In this document: piece by piece, positions 31 to 7,488 of the stretch
Layout of the letters: every line of letters begins with the position of its first letter
How positions within the stretch are numbered: the stretch's first letter is position 1
Origin: Myxococcales bacterium
GTDB lineage: Bacteria > Myxococcota_A > Polyangia > Polyangiales > Houyiibacteriaceae
DNA: 56,007 nt
Reading direction: 5' to 3'
Assembly (NCBI GenBank): GCA_029862185.1
Contig: JAOTXX010000019.1
Location: 1-56,007 of the forward strand
The notes under the pieces: model-generated
Databases searched by the model: none
Told to the model about the DNA's origin: nothing
The model's input: only the letters and a program-made list of their open reading frames with translations
Position numbers and translations under genes: made by a program

Positions 31-1166
31 CTAGGCGCCGATCGGCTTTTCGAAGAGGCGGTACCGCTTGTAGATCGTGGAACCCATGCTGCGGATGGCC
101 GCATTGATGAGTCGGTTGTCTTCGAGCGTCCAACCGAGCTCGGCCCATTCGTAGCCTTGCTTGAGGCCGCGCCGCACCAGCTCGGCGATCACAGCCATCG
201 CCAACGGGGCGTAGCGCTTCTTGCCGCGCAGCTCGGTGCGGATGCCGAGCAACATCAGTCGCGCGGACTTCGGGTGCCGAATCTTCAATCGCCAGATCAG
301 CTTTGGAATGGTGACCGGACCCAGCTTCCCTTTGAAATCGGAAATCGCCTCGTTGAGGTTCGGCAGACAGATGCAAATGGCAACTGCTGTCCGTCGATCT
401 CGGCAAAGAACGAGAGCTCTTTGTCGAGGATGAGCTGCAGATCGGCGGCCATCTTCTTTGCTTCGGAGTCCGTGGCAGGAACGAACCCCCAGTTGTGCTG
501 CCAGGCGTCGTTGAAGACGTCGAGGATGTCGTGGACTTCCTTCTTGAGCTTGCGCGGGCTCACCGAGCGGAATCGAACCTCGGGCAAGCTGGTGATCGCT
601 TCCCAGGCTCTCTGAGCGCGCGGAGGTGCAGGCAGCACCTGGTGCTTCCAGCCGTAGCAGTCCTTCGCCTTCTGAAGCCCGGCCCCTTCGGCAAGCGCCA
701 CTTGATACGGGCGGTGGTGGGGCGACATGATCGTCGGGGGCGATTCGAAGCCTTCGACGAGCATCCCGGTCTCCTCGTTGATCGAAAGCGAAAACGGGCC
801 ACGCATCAGCGTCATCCCGCGGCTTGCGAGCCACCGCTCGGCGGCACCAACCAAAGCCGACGCCACCTCCTGGTCGTTGACCGTGTCGAAGAAGCCGAAA
901 AAGCCGGCATTGTCCTTATGGATTCGTAGATGCTCGTGATCGATTTGCGCTGAAATCCGACCCACCGCTTTGCCGTCTTTCCACGCGGTGAAGAGCGCGA
1001 CTTCCGCGTGCTCGAAGAATGGGTTCTTCTCGGGCGTCAGCCGGTCTGAGATTTCCATGTTGAGCGGCGGCACCCAGGCCGGGTCGTCCGCGTACACGTC
1101 GAACGCAACTTGAATGAAGTCCTTCAGGTCCCGGCCCGGCTGATGCTGTTTGATCTCGACGCTCAT
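31..1166 (-). pseudogene. GNAT-like N-acetyltransferase family protein, interrupted by a frameshift
   Basis: The reading frame starts at 1166 and its ATG overlaps the fumC stop (ATGA, 1163-1166), so it is probably translationally coupled to fumC. About 260 residues are read in this frame, then the homologous continuation moves to another frame near 384-392. That frame runs on through PNLNEAISDF to the stop at 31, giving about 378 residues in all. The shift equals loss of one base. The architecture, with the opening VYADDPAWVPPL and repeated acyl-CoA-fold segments, matches large GNAT-like proteins of unknown substrate. Codon use on both sides of the break looks normal, so the lesion is either recent or a sequencing or assembly error. 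Without repair, translation ends in an unrelated tail at 297. Confidence 0.7.
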
Positions 1167-2554
1167 ACCTTGAGGGGGCCTACCATGTCTTCGGGCTGCA
1201 CCGCTTCGTCGAACTGCTCGCCGGTCAGCAAACCGAGCTCGATGACCGCCTCGCGGAGGGTCGTGTTGTTCTTGTATGCGTGCTTCGCGATCTTGGCGGC
1301 GTTGTCGTAGCCGACGAGCGGGTTCAAAGCCGTCACCAGCATCAACGAGCGGCGGAGCTTGTCGTCGATCGCCTCGAGATTCGGCTCGATGCCGATTGCG
1401 CAGTTGTCGTTGAAGCTCTGAGAGGCATCGCCGAGCAGCCGAATCGACTGGAGCAGGTTGTAGGCCATGACGGGCTTGTACACGTTGAGCTCGAAGTTAC
1501 CCTGCGACCCGGCGATTCCAATGGTCGCATCGTTACCCATGACCTGGGTGCACACCATCGTCATTGCTTCGCACTGCGTAGGGTTGACCTTGCCCGGCAT
1601 GATCGAGCTTCCGGGCTCGTTCTCCGGAATTCGAATCTCACCGATGCCCGAACGCGGGCCTGAGGAAAGCCAGCGCACGTCGTTTGCGATTTTCATCAGT
1701 GCCACCGCTAGCTGCTTGAGGGCGCCACTACTGCCGACGAACGCATCGTGTGCGGCAAGCGCCGCAAACTTGTTCGGCGCCGACACGAAATCCGTCGCAC
1801 TGAGCTCGGCGATTTTCGCAGCGACCCGGTCGGCATACTGTGGGTGCGTGTTCAGGCCGGTCCCGACCGCCGTCCCGCCCAGCGCTAGCTCGCGAAGCTG
1901 AGGCATCGTGGCCTCGACCGCCGCCAGGCCGTGGTCGATCTGCGAGACCCAGCCGCTGATCTCCTGCCCGAGCGTCAGCGGAGTGGCGTCTTGGAGGTGG
2001 GTCCGACCGATTTTCACGATCTGCGCGAACGCCTTGGCCTTGCTGTCGAGTGTGTCGCGAAGCAGCCGAACCTTGGGGATCATCCCTTCGACCGCGAGGA
2101 CCGCTGCGATGTGCATGGCGGTCGGAAAGGTGTCGTTGGACGACTGCGATCGATTGACGTGATCGTTGGGGTGCACGGGCTTTTTGCTACCCATCTCGCC
2201 ACCAGCCAGCTCGATCGCTCGGTTCGAAATGACCTCGTTGACGTTCATGTTGGACTGCGTTCCGGAGCCGGTCTGCCAAACGACCAGCGGGAAGTGCGCG
2301 TCGAGCTTCCCTTCGATGACCTCGTCGGCCGCGCGCACGATCAAATCGCACACGTCCTCGTCCAGATTGTCGAGGTCGCGGTTGGTGAGTGCGGCAGCTT
2401 TCTTGAGGATTCCAAATGCGCGAACCACATCGATCGGCATACGCTCCGTGCCGATTCGGAAGTTCATGCGCGACCTCATCGTCTGCGCGCCGTAGTATTT
2501 GTCCGCAGGCACTTCGATCGGGCCCATCGAGTCGGTTTCTACACGCGTCGTCAT
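1163..2554 (-). CDS. fumC: Class II fumarate hydratase
   Basis: Interconverts fumarate and L-malate in the TCA cycle; cytosolic homotetramer. The 463-residue length is typical of FumC. The superfamily signature [11 protein letters not shown] lies at residues 315-325 and carries the catalytic Ser on the mobile loop; the second catalytic motif, [10 protein letters not shown], has its His at about 186. The [14 protein letters not shown] segment (95-108) is also class II-specific. The ATG at 2554 follows a GGAGG-type ribosome site. The gene diverges from the P-type ATPase homologue across 67 bases and is followed, with a 4-base overlap, by the GNAT-like gene. It belongs to the same superfamily as argH, which lies 2.2 kb away on the other strand. 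Aspartase is the main alternative, but the motif wording fits fumarase better. Confidence 0.95.
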
Positions 2555-2621: not shown

Positions 2622-4778
2622 ATGCAACCGGCACGGCCGCAGCTCCCATCTCAGCCTTGCCCCGCCTGCGGGCGGCCGGTGGACCCGCTTCGCGCTCGTC
2701 GTGTGCTTTGGCTGCAGGACGGAGCCCGCTTCCTTTGTGACGAGGCGTGCCAGGTGCGCTTCCAGTTGGGCGAACGAGAGTTCGACGCCCCCGCGGGCCG
2801 GCCTTCCGAACGAGCCCGCGTCGAGCGCCCCTCCATTCCGGATCTCGTGCGAGAAGCGACCGTCACGAGGGACGATGCGACCGGAAACGACGGCGAAGCC
2901 AGTCGCCCGGGCCGGTATGACCCGATGCTCGCGACCGGCCTCGCGTTGCTGACCCTTGCGCTAATTCTGCTGATGCCGGGCCGCGAGGTCGTATGGCTGG
3001 GGGCGTTCCTGGTCGTGCTCTGCGCCGCGGTGAACGCGCGCATTCCGCTCACCAACATCCGGGCGACTCGCTCGCTCACGCTCATCGCGCCGCTCGGCCT
3101 CGTCCTCGCGGCCGTCGCCGCACTGATGTCCACGGACGCGCAGACACAACGCTGGTCGCTCGTCGGCGCGAGCGTCGCTGCCGTCGCGGTTTCGATGCGC
3201 AACTGGCTTCACGCATCATTCTCCGCGCCCTTGCGAAACGCTGCGGCATCGCTTCGCGAAACCTTGCCTCGCAGTGCGCGAGTCCCCACCGGCGACACCT
3301 CCGCCTACGAGGAGGTGCCCGCGGCCAGCTTGCGCCAAGGAGACCTCGTCGTCGTACTGGAGGACGAGCTCGCGCCAGCCGATGGGGTGATCGAAGAGGG
3401 CTCGGGGCTGGCCCTGCGCTTTCCAAACGCGGCGCACTCGCGGGCCTACGGCGAAGGTGACTTCATGCTGGCGGGCACGCGTGTCCTCGAGGGCGCGGTC
3501 ACGGTCCGGGTTCGCCGTACGGGTCAGGAGTGCGGAATCGTTCGCGCGGTCGAGCTGGGGAGACGCATGCAGCAGGAGCTCGCGGCGGCGTCCCGTCTTC
3601 GTTTTCTGGTCACCCACTGGAGCTGGCTTCTGTTGGCGCCAGCAAGCATCGCGGCATTGATCTGGGCGGGACCAGCCGGGGCCGCGACCCTTCTTCTTGG
3701 GGTCCCGACGCTTGCGCTGCTGGCATCCCTCGACGTTCCCTTGGACGCTGGCGCGCTTGCTTCGGCTCGAAGGGGCATGTTTTTCGGAAGCTCACGCGCC
3801 CTCCGCGACGCGGGGCGGGCAAGCACGACGGCCATTCTCCTACGAGGTTCGCTCACCGCGGGCGAGCCGGTCGTACAGCAGGCACATTCGCTCGGGGAGA
3901 CAGACCTCGCGCGCGTTCTCGGGCTCGCGGCCGCCGCCGAGCGGGCCGCCGAAGATCATCCGATTGCCGGGGCGGTCCGACGCTATGCAGAGGAGCACGG
4001 CGACGCCTCGGCCACGGTGCGCAAGCAGCGCGTACGCGAAGGCCTGGGCGTGACCGCGGTGACCTCTCATGGGGTCCCGGTCGTGGTCGGCCGCCGTCAG
4101 CTTCTCCTCGACGAAGGCATCAGCGTTGCCACGGCGGACAGCGACGCAGAACACATCGAGAACGAAGGCTTGACTCCGATCTTCATCGCGGTCGACAGCC
4201 GGCTTGAAGCGCTGGTCGCGGTGCTCGACGCCATGCACGTCGGCGCACGTGATGCGGTGCAACGGATCGAAGACCTGCCGTGCGAGGTGGTCATCCTCTC
4301 TGGAGACGATCGCCGCGCCGTCGAGCGCATCGCGGCACACCTAGGCTCCCCTCGCGTCAAGGCTCCGCTCCTGCCGCATGAGCGCGTCGCCGAGGTTCGG
4401 GCGCTCCGCGAGACCGGCGGCGTGACCGCGACGATCGGCCGGGGCGGAGAGGACGATCCTGTGCTGGCCGCCGCCGATGTTCCGGTCTCGCTGAGGCTCG
4501 TGGGCTCTGCCCTGGAGGACCGGGGCGTGGTCGTTGCCAGTCAGGACATTCGCGATGCCGCCGGAGCGCTCTGGATCGCGCGGGCGGTACGTCGGGCGAC
4601 TTGGAGGAGCATCGGCGCCTGTGCCTTGGCCACCCTCCTGGTCGTGCTCGGTGTCGCTTTCGGTTGGATGACCCCCGTCATTGCCGCGCTGTGTGCGGCA
4701 ATGACGGAGGCCTGGACGCTTCGGGCTGGCTCCCGACTGCTTCGCCGTGTAGACCTGCGTGTGCCGATGCAGCAATAG
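2622..4778 (+). CDS. P1B-type ATPase homologue with N-terminal YHS-like domain; catalytic motifs lost (pseudoenzyme)
   Basis: 718 residues with the layout of a heavy-metal P-type ATPase. An N-terminal YHS/TRASH-like Cys module (CPACGRPVD... [11 protein letters not shown], about 18-52) is followed by four hydrophobic segments (about 105-200), an actuator-like domain (about 215-310), two more segments (about 330-375), P/N-like domains, and a final hydrophobic pair (about 660-700). Every catalytic motif is substituted. DKTGT reads LLRGS, with Leu406 at the phosphorylated Asp; TGES reads about PNAA (268-271); CPC reads VPT (361-363); GDGxNDxP reads GRGGEDDP (606-613). The N-domain HP (446-447) and the LTAGEP flank remain, so the alignment is clear. 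The frame is intact and GC-typical. AGGAG lies upstream of the ATG at 2622, and argH starts 13 bases after the stop. ATP-driven transport looks impossible; metal sensing or a structural role is inference. Confidence 0.85.
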
Positions 4779-4791
4779 CGGAGAACGATCG

Positions 4792-6183
4792 ATGAGTGAC
4801 ATGGCATGGGGCGGCCGGTTCGAAAAAGAGCTGGACGCCATCGCAGCGAGCTTCAGCGCCAGCGTGGATGTCGACGGCCGGCTTTGGCCTCAGGACATCG
4901 ACGGTTCCATTGCGCACGTGCGCATGCTCGCCGACCAGAACATCTTGTCCAAGCAAGACGCCGACAAAATCGTCCGTGGCCTCGAAACGATCCGCACCTC
5001 AATCGAACGGGGTGAGTTCGACTGGGACGAAAGCAAAGAAGACGTCCACATGAACATCGAGGCGGCGCTGACGAACGCGATCGGCGACGCCGGCGGACGG
5101 CTGCACACCGGCCGAAGCCGAAATGACCAGGTCGCAACGGACATGCGCCTCTGGACGCGACAAGCCTGCGTGTCCATCGTCGCGGACATCGACGCGCTGC
5201 TGGAGGTCTTGGTCGACAAGGCCGATGGGCACCTCGACTTTCTGATGCCGGGGTACACGCACCTTCAGAGGGCGCAGCCGATTCGCCTGGCGCATCATCT
5301 CATGGCCTGGGCTGAAATGCTCGACCGCGACCGCGGCCGGCTCCTCGATGCATCCGAGCGCATGAACGAATCGCCTCTCGGCAGCGCGGCTCTTGCCGGC
5401 ACGACCTTTCCGATCGACCGAGAGGCCACGGCCAAGGCGCTTGGTTTCGACCATGCGATGCGCAACTCACTCGACGCGGTGAGCAGCCGGGATTTTCTCC
5501 TCGAATCGGTGAGCGCGCTCGCCATCTGCTCGGTCCACCTTTCACGGATCGCCGAGGAGCTCGTGCTTTGGTCGAGTCAGGAGTTCGCGTTCATGCAGAT
5601 GAGCGACGCATTCACGACGGGCTCGTCGATCATGCCGCAGAAGAAGAACCCGGACATGCCGGAGCTGGTCCGAGGCAAGACGGGCCGGGTGGTCGGCTCC
5701 CTCGTCAACCTCCTGGTCATGCTCAAGGGCCTTCCGCTCACCTACAACCGAGACCTTCAAGAGGACAAGGCCCCGGTCTTCGATGCGTTCGATACGGTCC
5801 ACGATTGCCTGGCGGTCTTGAGCGGGGCGATCGGCTCGGCGGAGTTCGACAAAGATCGGATGGCGGCTTCCCTTCAGGCAGGCTTTTTGGATGCCACCGA
5901 GGTCGCGGACTGGCTTGCTCTGCGAGACGTGCCGTTCCGCGATGCGCATCATGTGGCGGGCAGGCTGGTTCAAAGGGCCGTGAAGGAGGGCAAGACCCTC
6001 TCGGAGCTGCCGCTCGAGGCCTATCAGAACGAGCACGCGGCATTCGACGACACGATCTTCTACGCCCTGAACATGGAAGCCGCGGTCGAGCGGCGGGATG
6101 TCGTCGGGGGGCCGGCCCGCGGGCGCGTCGCTGGGGCCATCGCCGAGCTCCGGGGTCGACTGCAGGCGCGCAGGGACTCATAA
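4792..6183 (+). CDS. argH: Argininosuccinate lyase
   Basis: Splits argininosuccinate into arginine and fumarate, the last step of arginine synthesis; cytosolic tetramer. The loop signature GSSIMPQKKNPDMPELVRGK (277-296) supplies the catalytic Ser, and GYTHLQRAQP has the catalytic His at about 157. HTGRSRNDQ (106-113) is also diagnostic. I start at 4792 because MSDMAWGGRF is the usual family N-terminus and GGAG precedes it; an in-frame ATG at 4759 would lie inside the preceding gene. The length of 463 residues is typical. It sits 13 bases after the ATPase-like gene and 9 bases before lysA, so all are probably co-transcribed. The fumarate it releases is the substrate of FumC, encoded nearby on the other strand. 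Confidence 0.96.
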   Translation: MSDMAWGGRFEKELDAIAASFSASVDVDGRLWPQDIDGSIAHVRMLADQNILSKQDADKIVRGLETIRTSIERGEFDWDESKEDVHMNIEAALTNAIGDAGGRLHTGRSRNDQVATDMRLWTRQACVSIVADIDALLEVLVDKADGHLDFLMPGYTHLQRAQPIRLAHHLMAWAEMLDRDRGRLLDASERMNESPLGSAALAGTTFPIDREATAKALGFDHAMRNSLDAVSSRDFLLESVSALAICSVHLSRIAEELVLWSSQEFAFMQMSDAFTTGSSIMPQKKNPDMPELVRGKTGRVVGSLVNLLVMLKGLPLTYNRDLQEDKAPVFDAFDTVHDCLAVLSGAIGSAEFDKDRMAASLQAGFLDATEVADWLALRDVPFRDAHHVAGRLVQRAVKEGKTLSELPLEAYQNEHAAFDDTIFYALNMEAAVERRDVVGGPARGRVAGAIAELRGRLQARRDS

Positions 6184-6192
6184 AGGACTGCC

Positions 6193-7488
6193 GTGTCCAA
6201 CGTTCACATTCCGGAATCACCGTGGTTCTCGTATCGAGATGGTGCGCTCGTCTGCGAAGACGTCCCGTTGGAATCGATCGCCAACGAGGTCGACACGCCT
6301 GCGTTCGTCTACTCGGGCGCAGCGATCGACGACGCCTACCGCTCGATCGATGAAGCGCTCGCTTTTGCCCCGCACCTGATCGCGTACGCCGTGAAGGCCA
6401 ATGGCAATCTGTCCGTTCTCGCGCGATTGGCCGCACAGGGCTGCGGCGCGGACATCGTCTCTGCAGGCGAGATGCAGCGCGCCCTCAAGGCAGGGTTCCC
6501 CCCTGAGCGCATCGTGTACAGCGGAGTCGGCAAGCGGCGCGACGAAATCGTGGCGGCCGCAAACGCCGGCATTCGGGCTCTGCACGTCGAAAACATCCAG
6601 GAGCTCGATGTCGTCGAAAGCGTCGCACGGGAGCTCGGTCGTCCGCTGGCCATCGGCCTGCGGGTCAATCCGGATGTCGACGCTGACACCCATCCTTACA
6701 TCGCGACGGGGCTTCGCGAGTCGAAGTTCGGCCTGGCGATTCCCGTCGCGGAGTCGATCGTTCCCCGTGTCCTCGATAGCCCCCACCTCGACCTCGAAGC
6801 GGTCGCCTGTCACATCGGCTCGCAGCTTTCGTCCCCACAGCCGCTGCGCGAAGCGATCGCAATCCTCGGCAACTTCGCCGGCCATTGCATCGACCGAGGG
6901 GCGAGGCTGCGCGCGATTGACGTAGGCGGCGGCTGGCCCATGCACTACGGGCAAGAAGTCGACGCCTATCCGCCCGCCGCCCGGTTCGGTGAAGCGATCC
7001 GCGAAGGCCTCGAAGACTCCGGCATGTTGCGCCCGGAAGTCGAAATCATCACCGAGCCTGGGAGAGCGCTGGTCGGTGATGCCGGCGTGCTCTTGACGCG
7101 CGTTCTGTACACCAAGATGCAAGGCGATCGCCGGTTCGTCATCGTCGACGCCGCCATGACCGAGCTCATCCGCCCCGCGCTTTACGGCGCCTACCATGCG
7201 ATCATGCCGATCGCGGAGCCAGACCCTCGCGCCGATCTCGTTTCGGTCGACGTCGTCGGACCCGTCTGCGAGTCGGGCGACTTCGTTGCGAAGGACCGCC
7301 CTTTGCCAGAAGTGAAGCAGGGCGACTTACTTGCCATTCGCGGAGCCGGCGCTTACGGACGGGAGATGCAGAGCATGTACAACGCACGCCCCCTGCCCCC
7401 TGAGGTTCTCGTCGACGGTTCGCGCTCTCGTCTGGTGCGCCGGCGGAGCGGCCCGGAAGCCCTGTGGCAAGGCGAGATCCTCGCATGA
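6193..7488 (+). CDS. lysA: Diaminopimelate decarboxylase
   Basis: Decarboxylates meso-diaminopimelate to L-lysine using PLP; last step of lysine synthesis. 431 residues with an alanine-racemase-like barrel. The PLP lysine is K68 in YAVKANGN; further landmarks are HIGSQL, DVGGGWP, EPGRALVGDAG and the CESGD motif, whose Cys and Glu reach the active site from the partner subunit. The start is GTG at 6193 with AAGGA a few bases upstream. The TGA stop overlaps the ATG of the ketosynthase gene (ATGA, 7485-7488), so the two are likely translationally coupled. Pairing with argH groups two amino-acid end-steps in one plus-strand unit. Decarboxylases for related substrates share the fold, but the motif set fits LysA. 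Confidence 0.95.
   Translation: MSNVHIPESPWFSYRDGALVCEDVPLESIANEVDTPAFVYSGAAIDDAYRSIDEALAFAPHLIAYAVKANGNLSVLARLAAQGCGADIVSAGEMQRALKAGFPPERIVYSGVGKRRDEIVAAANAGIRALHVENIQELDVVESVARELGRPLAIGLRVNPDVDADTHPYIATGLRESKFGLAIPVAESIVPRVLDSPHLDLEAVACHIGSQLSSPQPLREAIAILGNFAGHCIDRGARLRAIDVGGGWPMHYGQEVDAYPPAARFGEAIREGLEDSGMLRPEVEIITEPGRALVGDAGVLLTRVLYTKMQGDRRFVIVDAAMTELIRPALYGAYHAIMPIAEPDPRADLVSVDVVGPVCESGDFVAKDRPLPEVKQGDLLAIRGAGAYGREMQSMYNARPLPPEVLVDGSRSRLVRRRSGPEALWQGEILA

Follow-up and report, generated by a model that had tools for sequence, protein, structure and literature searches.

The window analysed here, a stretch of 56,007 nucleotides, comes from a genome of 4.29 Mb (100% complete, 169 contigs). 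At 2622 to 4778 on the plus strand it carries a gene that runs from ATG to TAG as a single unbroken frame of 718 codons, in agreement with the coordinates, strand, frame and length given in a preliminary description of this DNA. The gene encodes a relative of the P1B heavy-metal pumps and is flanked by metabolic genes. Domains and motifs were mapped from sequence profiles; an AlphaFold model built from five close sequences was too poor for use (pLDDT 38.8 for the whole protein and 32.1 for the P/N head). The features are as follows.

1163..2554, minus strand: fumC (class II fumarate hydratase), the divergent upstream neighbour (TIGR00979, 7.2e-236)
2622..4778, plus strand: pseudo-P1B-ATPase gene, 718 aa (open reading frame with profile and sequence matches to P1B)
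2658..2750, plus strand: N-terminal four-cysteine finger CPxCG-xxVDPLRA-...-FLCxxxC (C13, C16, R24, C39, C43)
2916..3221, plus strand: first membrane block, residues 99-200 (hydropathy), poorly conserved compared with a live paralogue
3222..3575, plus strand: actuator-like domain, residues 201-318 (Pfam E1-E2_ATPase, 1.1e-8), with PNAA (268-271) in place of TGES
3582..3746, plus strand: M3-M4, residues 321-375, CPC lost (alignment, hydropathy)
3774..3896, plus strand: P-domain part 1, residues 385-425, with LLRGS (406-410) for DKTGT
3897..4226, plus strand: N-domain, residues 426-535, with E440, H446-P447, G474xG476 and G490 kept and R467, R492 and E513 fixed (alignment)
4227..4586, plus strand: P-domain part 2, residues 536-655, with SGD for TGD, Arg588 for the motif III Lys and GRGGED for GDGxND; D551, Q547 and R564 fixed (alignment, pN/pS)
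4593..4739, plus strand: M5-M6, residues 658-706, metal ligands lost (C-terminal sequences, hydropathy)
4792..6183, plus strand: argH (argininosuccinate lyase), 13 bases downstream of the dead gene and a conserved neighbour (TIGR00838, 6.6e-185)
6193..7488, plus strand: lysA (diaminopimelate decarboxylase; TIGR01048, 3.7e-136)

Downstream of fumC, at 31-1166 on the minus strand, an acetyltransferase-like gene seems split over two frames: its ORF 297-1166 seems to be continued in another frame by ORF 31-834, through either a frameshift or an assembly error.

The kinship of the 718-residue protein with heavy-metal P-type ATPases, already proposed in the preliminary description, extends across its domains. 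It matches NCBIfam TIGR01525 at 2.5e-57 (195 bits, below the curated cut-off of 346) and CopA in the PDB at 3e-36 with the window sequence alone or 3.8e-84 with the family profile. The aspartyl-phosphate cycle is the defining trait of P-type ATPases, and here the residues that carry it have been replaced. When the protein is aligned with CopA and with live paralogues from the same genomes, the DKTGT site reads Leu406-Leu407-Arg408-Gly409-Ser410, with Leu406 at the position of the phosphorylated Asp; the TGES site reads Pro268-Asn269-Ala270-Ala271 and the GDGxND site Gly606-Arg607-Gly608-Gly609-Glu610-Asp611. These three assignments are the ones first made from the sequence alone. At CPC, VPT (361-363) had been proposed: both cysteines are indeed missing, but the register is uncertain by one residue, the site being either VPT or PTL. 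The four motifs first listed as lost are thus all lost, but the list was incomplete, as Arg588 stands in place of the HAD motif III Lys, and the C-terminal sequences lack the metal-ligand residues of M5 and M6. Of the marks of a catalytic P1B-ATPase, the window protein thus lacks the DKTGT Asp, TGES, the GDGxND Mg2+ site and the HAD Lys, as well as the CPC, M5 and M6 ligands.

These losses are shared by a whole family. We compared 87 distinct members of the dead clade with 29 live P1B controls; the controls were picked by DKTGT, so that their Asp count (29/29) holds by construction and the other motifs provide the independent check. The phosphorylated Asp is found in 0/87 dead members, as are the TGES Glu and the first Asp of GDGxND, and the HAD Lys in 2/87, against 29/29 live controls for each of these last three. 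The final Asp of GDGxND is kept in 83 of the 87. Judged from these residues, the phosphoenzyme chemistry of the family and its transmembrane metal path are gone.

How widespread is this family? A profile built from 24 members, with a match line at E 1e-95 or better, was run against 184 genomes of the same order, and the dead gene was found in 145 of them (94/112 among the good genomes), nearly always in one copy. This count is a lower bound: diverged members fall below the line in G022, G030, G034, G043, G046 and G050, and contig-edge fragments occur in G024 and G038. Several of the genomes are incomplete. Most genomes of the genus carry an orthologue at 65-91% identity, and identity drops to about 35-43% in the order's other families. 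Among 189 genomes sampled from the phylum, strong matches end at the order boundary, and those next in line (E 1e-88 or weaker) proved to be live pumps in each case that was read, save L134, which belongs to the same order; beyond Myxococcota the survey covered short peptide patterns. The dead members form one clade (SH-aLRT 100), set on a branch apart from the FixI/CcoI-type pumps and outside that subfamily in a quick tree that carries a long-branch warning. The most parsimonious account is a single ancient loss, passed on vertically since then. An ancient, vertically inherited pseudo-P1B-ATPase family of one Myxococcota order, the Polyangiales, best explains these data.

Motif loss on its own might suggest a decaying pseudogene, or an artefact of assembly or frame. 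Yet over 90 loci, drawn from independent assemblies that include closed chromosomes, have long open frames, and dN/dS of the dead gene against six relatives in the genus is 0.14-0.17 (a row at 0.60, L063, was left out as a frame slip, the ungapped comparison involving a gene with a small indel). For comparison, argH gives 0.08-0.10 and fumC about 0.05-0.06. Decay or artefact is ruled out on these two grounds, and we give it next to no credence. The earlier claim that the gene looks selected rather than decaying thus holds, and is reinforced by a near-single-copy family that lacks the Asp throughout the order and forms a single clade; a search for what could overturn it, an Asp at the phosphorylation site or homologues with decayed frames and dN/dS near 1, found neither. 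Catalytic residues lost across orthologues under purifying selection are the mark of a pseudoenzyme, and the sequence data strongly support the view that the gene product is a phosphorylation-dead pseudo-P1B-ATPase kept by selection.

What, then, is selected? Few regions are as constrained as the degenerate P-domain (pN/pS 0.07-0.15 in its part 2, the larger one), and the linker and first helices are the least constrained (0.3-0.7). Over the same genome pairs, the N-domain is 63-79% conserved in the dead protein and 51-67% in the live CopA-like pump, while M3-M4 is 49-80% conserved in the dead protein against 79-91% in the live one, and the helices 40-82% against 70-91%. Because conservation is inverted relative to a live pump, we suggest that the dead protein acts through its cytoplasmic head and that the membrane part is mainly an anchor. 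This bears on whether the protein might still be a transporter, either as a passive, ATP-independent channel or as an ATPase that uses another residue. By hydropathy the membrane layout is kept, and ERMA/TMEM94 is reported to move Mg2+ without TGES or GDGxND (PMC13322241). However, the very Asp on which ERMA depends is found in 0/87 members, the CPC, M5 and M6 ligands are lost and the helices are among the least conserved regions, which makes continued transport improbable.

The head itself has retained one set of residues and fixed another. All positions that bind nucleotide in the P1B N-domain (E, H, P, GxG, VG) are present in the window protein. Across the family the glycines of this pocket are nearly invariant (G474 86/87, G476 86/87, G490 87/87), followed by P447 (80/87), E440 (71/87) and H446 (60/87), the last being lost in about one third of members. 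The glycines may be kept for folding only. In addition, several residues mostly absent from live pumps are fixed in the dead family: R467 (86/87), E513 (85/87), D551 (85/87), Q547 (79/87), L496 (81/87), A646 (82/87) and Ala503. Three members, L183 (family f2, in G034), L046 and L047, have lost the actuator region as well, keeping the finger, the N-domain and the argH neighbour; a further stripping of the pump body is possible in these cases.

At the N-terminus, the four cysteines and Arg24 are present in all non-truncated members (84/84 for the cysteines). The preliminary description had seen a YHS-like site here: the cysteines (C13, C16, C39, C43) are real, but Pfam YHS (PF04945) finds no match among 24 members even with E allowed to reach 1, and what weak matches the finger has are to DUF7576, TRASH and zf-FCS. 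Could the protein serve to sense, buffer or store metal? In such a scheme the finger would bind zinc or another metal, the dead body would be a scaffold relaying the metal level to a partner, and the adjacency to arginine genes, described below, would be incidental. The invariant cysteines fit, as does the weak likeness to TRASH and zf-FCS, and a Fur-family gene follows in many loci of families f12 and f7. Against this, no metal-efflux gene recurs as a neighbour, the membrane metal ligands are lost, and selection is strongest on the P- and N-domains rather than on the finger. We consider a metal role possible but rather unlikely.

The gene neighbourhood, which usually includes genes of arginine biosynthesis, offers another lead. 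In families f1, f4 and f9, most members have the dead gene immediately upstream of argH, which lysA usually follows, all on the same strand, as in the window. In most f12 genera it lies instead directly after argD or argD-argF, and the next gene often encodes a Fur-family or a protein-kinase-like protein. Two f3 members have it divergent from argH. Arginine genes are missing from the vicinity in f5 and in part of the f3 and f12 members; in two f5 members the dead gene precedes frr. Having two different arginine-gene arrangements beside one gene is suggestive of a functional link. Both could also derive from one ancestral arginine cluster, and the linkage could be an inherited operon position instead of function. 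G027 provides a natural deletion: at its locus L173, fumC and argH are divergent neighbours with no dead gene between them. G027 thus keeps argH without the dead gene, so arginine synthesis has no strict need of it. No ArgR was found in 38 close relatives, which says little because most other Myxococcota also lack it.

Two further observations concern these loci. The Fur-family regulator gene lies directly 3' of the dead gene at L106, L108, L114, L115, L119, L151 and L159, among the f12 and f7 loci. In several f12 genomes with one large contig (L107, that is G329:C1, and C1 of G327, G328 and G245), the dead gene is about 10 kb from base 1; at L107 it adjoins argD, grpE and dnaK.

The dead protein might also assist a live P1B-ATPase of the same cell (CopA or FixI/CcoI) as its regulatory subunit or partner; a partner role had been listed in the preliminary description. 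The source genome does have a live pump of the CopA-like kind and one of the FixI/CcoI-like kind. However, in G019 (94% complete) and G008 (90%) the dead gene is the sole P1B match, a point that the incompleteness of such assembled genomes weakens, and no P1B gene recurs as its neighbour. The partner role is accordingly weakened, and we rate it as highly unlikely.

The explanation we put forward is a pseudo-ATPase with a membrane-anchored, nucleotide-binding head and a finger, tied to arginine operons; in our judgement it is an even call. The protein would no longer pump, its helices serving to anchor it in the membrane. Its N-domain would still bind nucleotide (ATP or ADP) without hydrolysis, and this binding would shift the cytoplasmic head. 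The head could then signal to a cytoplasmic partner through the four-cysteine finger, which would bind zinc, and through the face of the P-domain that bears the new invariant residues. The process most likely to be served is arginine biosynthesis, for which the protein may be a membrane scaffold or regulator that responds to energy or metal status. This chain of events is plausible, short of proven. We can also envision, as a doubtful extension, that an entire order has made membrane receptors out of a P-type ATPase, in the form of a nucleotide-gated, zinc-finger-bearing switch over arginine biosynthesis. We know of no bacterial precedent for signalling by a P-type fold.

A fold kept for the age of an order after its chemistry was lost amounts to a natural experiment on the other uses open to the P-type fold, and the gene linkage offers a testable tie of arginine biosynthesis to a membrane protein. 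There is also a practical side: although the protein scores below the TIGR01525 cut-off, similarity-based annotation may still label genes of this kind as metal pumps and thereby exaggerate the metal resistance of myxobacteria.

How does the family compare with known systems? A first close relative is the P1B pump CopA (AfCopA 3j08/7r0g, LpCopA 3rfu; TIGR01525), with which the dead protein shares domain order and overall homology, together with the A-domain Asp/Gly, the HP, GxG and VG of the N-domain, the P-domain GD and the final Asp of GDGxND. Unlike CopA, it lacks the phosphorylated Asp, TGES, CPC, the motif III Lys, the first Asp of GDGxND and the M5/M6 ligands; it has a four-cysteine finger instead of an HMA domain, and its helices drift. 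A second comparison comes from the same genome, where the FixI/CcoI-type (CopA2) pump L166 (G000:C163:10000-13800) also carries an N-terminal Cys finger (CIHC...YCCRGC) before its P1B body. The two fingers are similar in layout, but L166 keeps DKTGT, CPC and GDG.

The preliminary description could name no family of dead P1B ATPases, and among open-access PMC papers we likewise found no bacterial family of inactive, pseudo or degenerate P-type ATPases. For degenerate motifs on a P-type body, the nearest precedent is human TMEM94/ERMA, which has the P-type architecture with TGES and GDGVND lost and whose status as an ATPase is disputed (PMC12134183, PMC13322241). It was found to bind AMPPCP with micromolar affinity but to show no ATPase activity (PMC12134183), while Mg2+ transport dependent on its Asp has also been reported (PMC13322241). 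TMEM94/ERMA is eukaryotic, is a reported Mg2+ ATPase rather than a P1B heavy-metal type, and keeps its Asp (DKQGI), whereas the dead family is without even that residue. This large bacterial family provides a clear counterpart to the disputed human protein.
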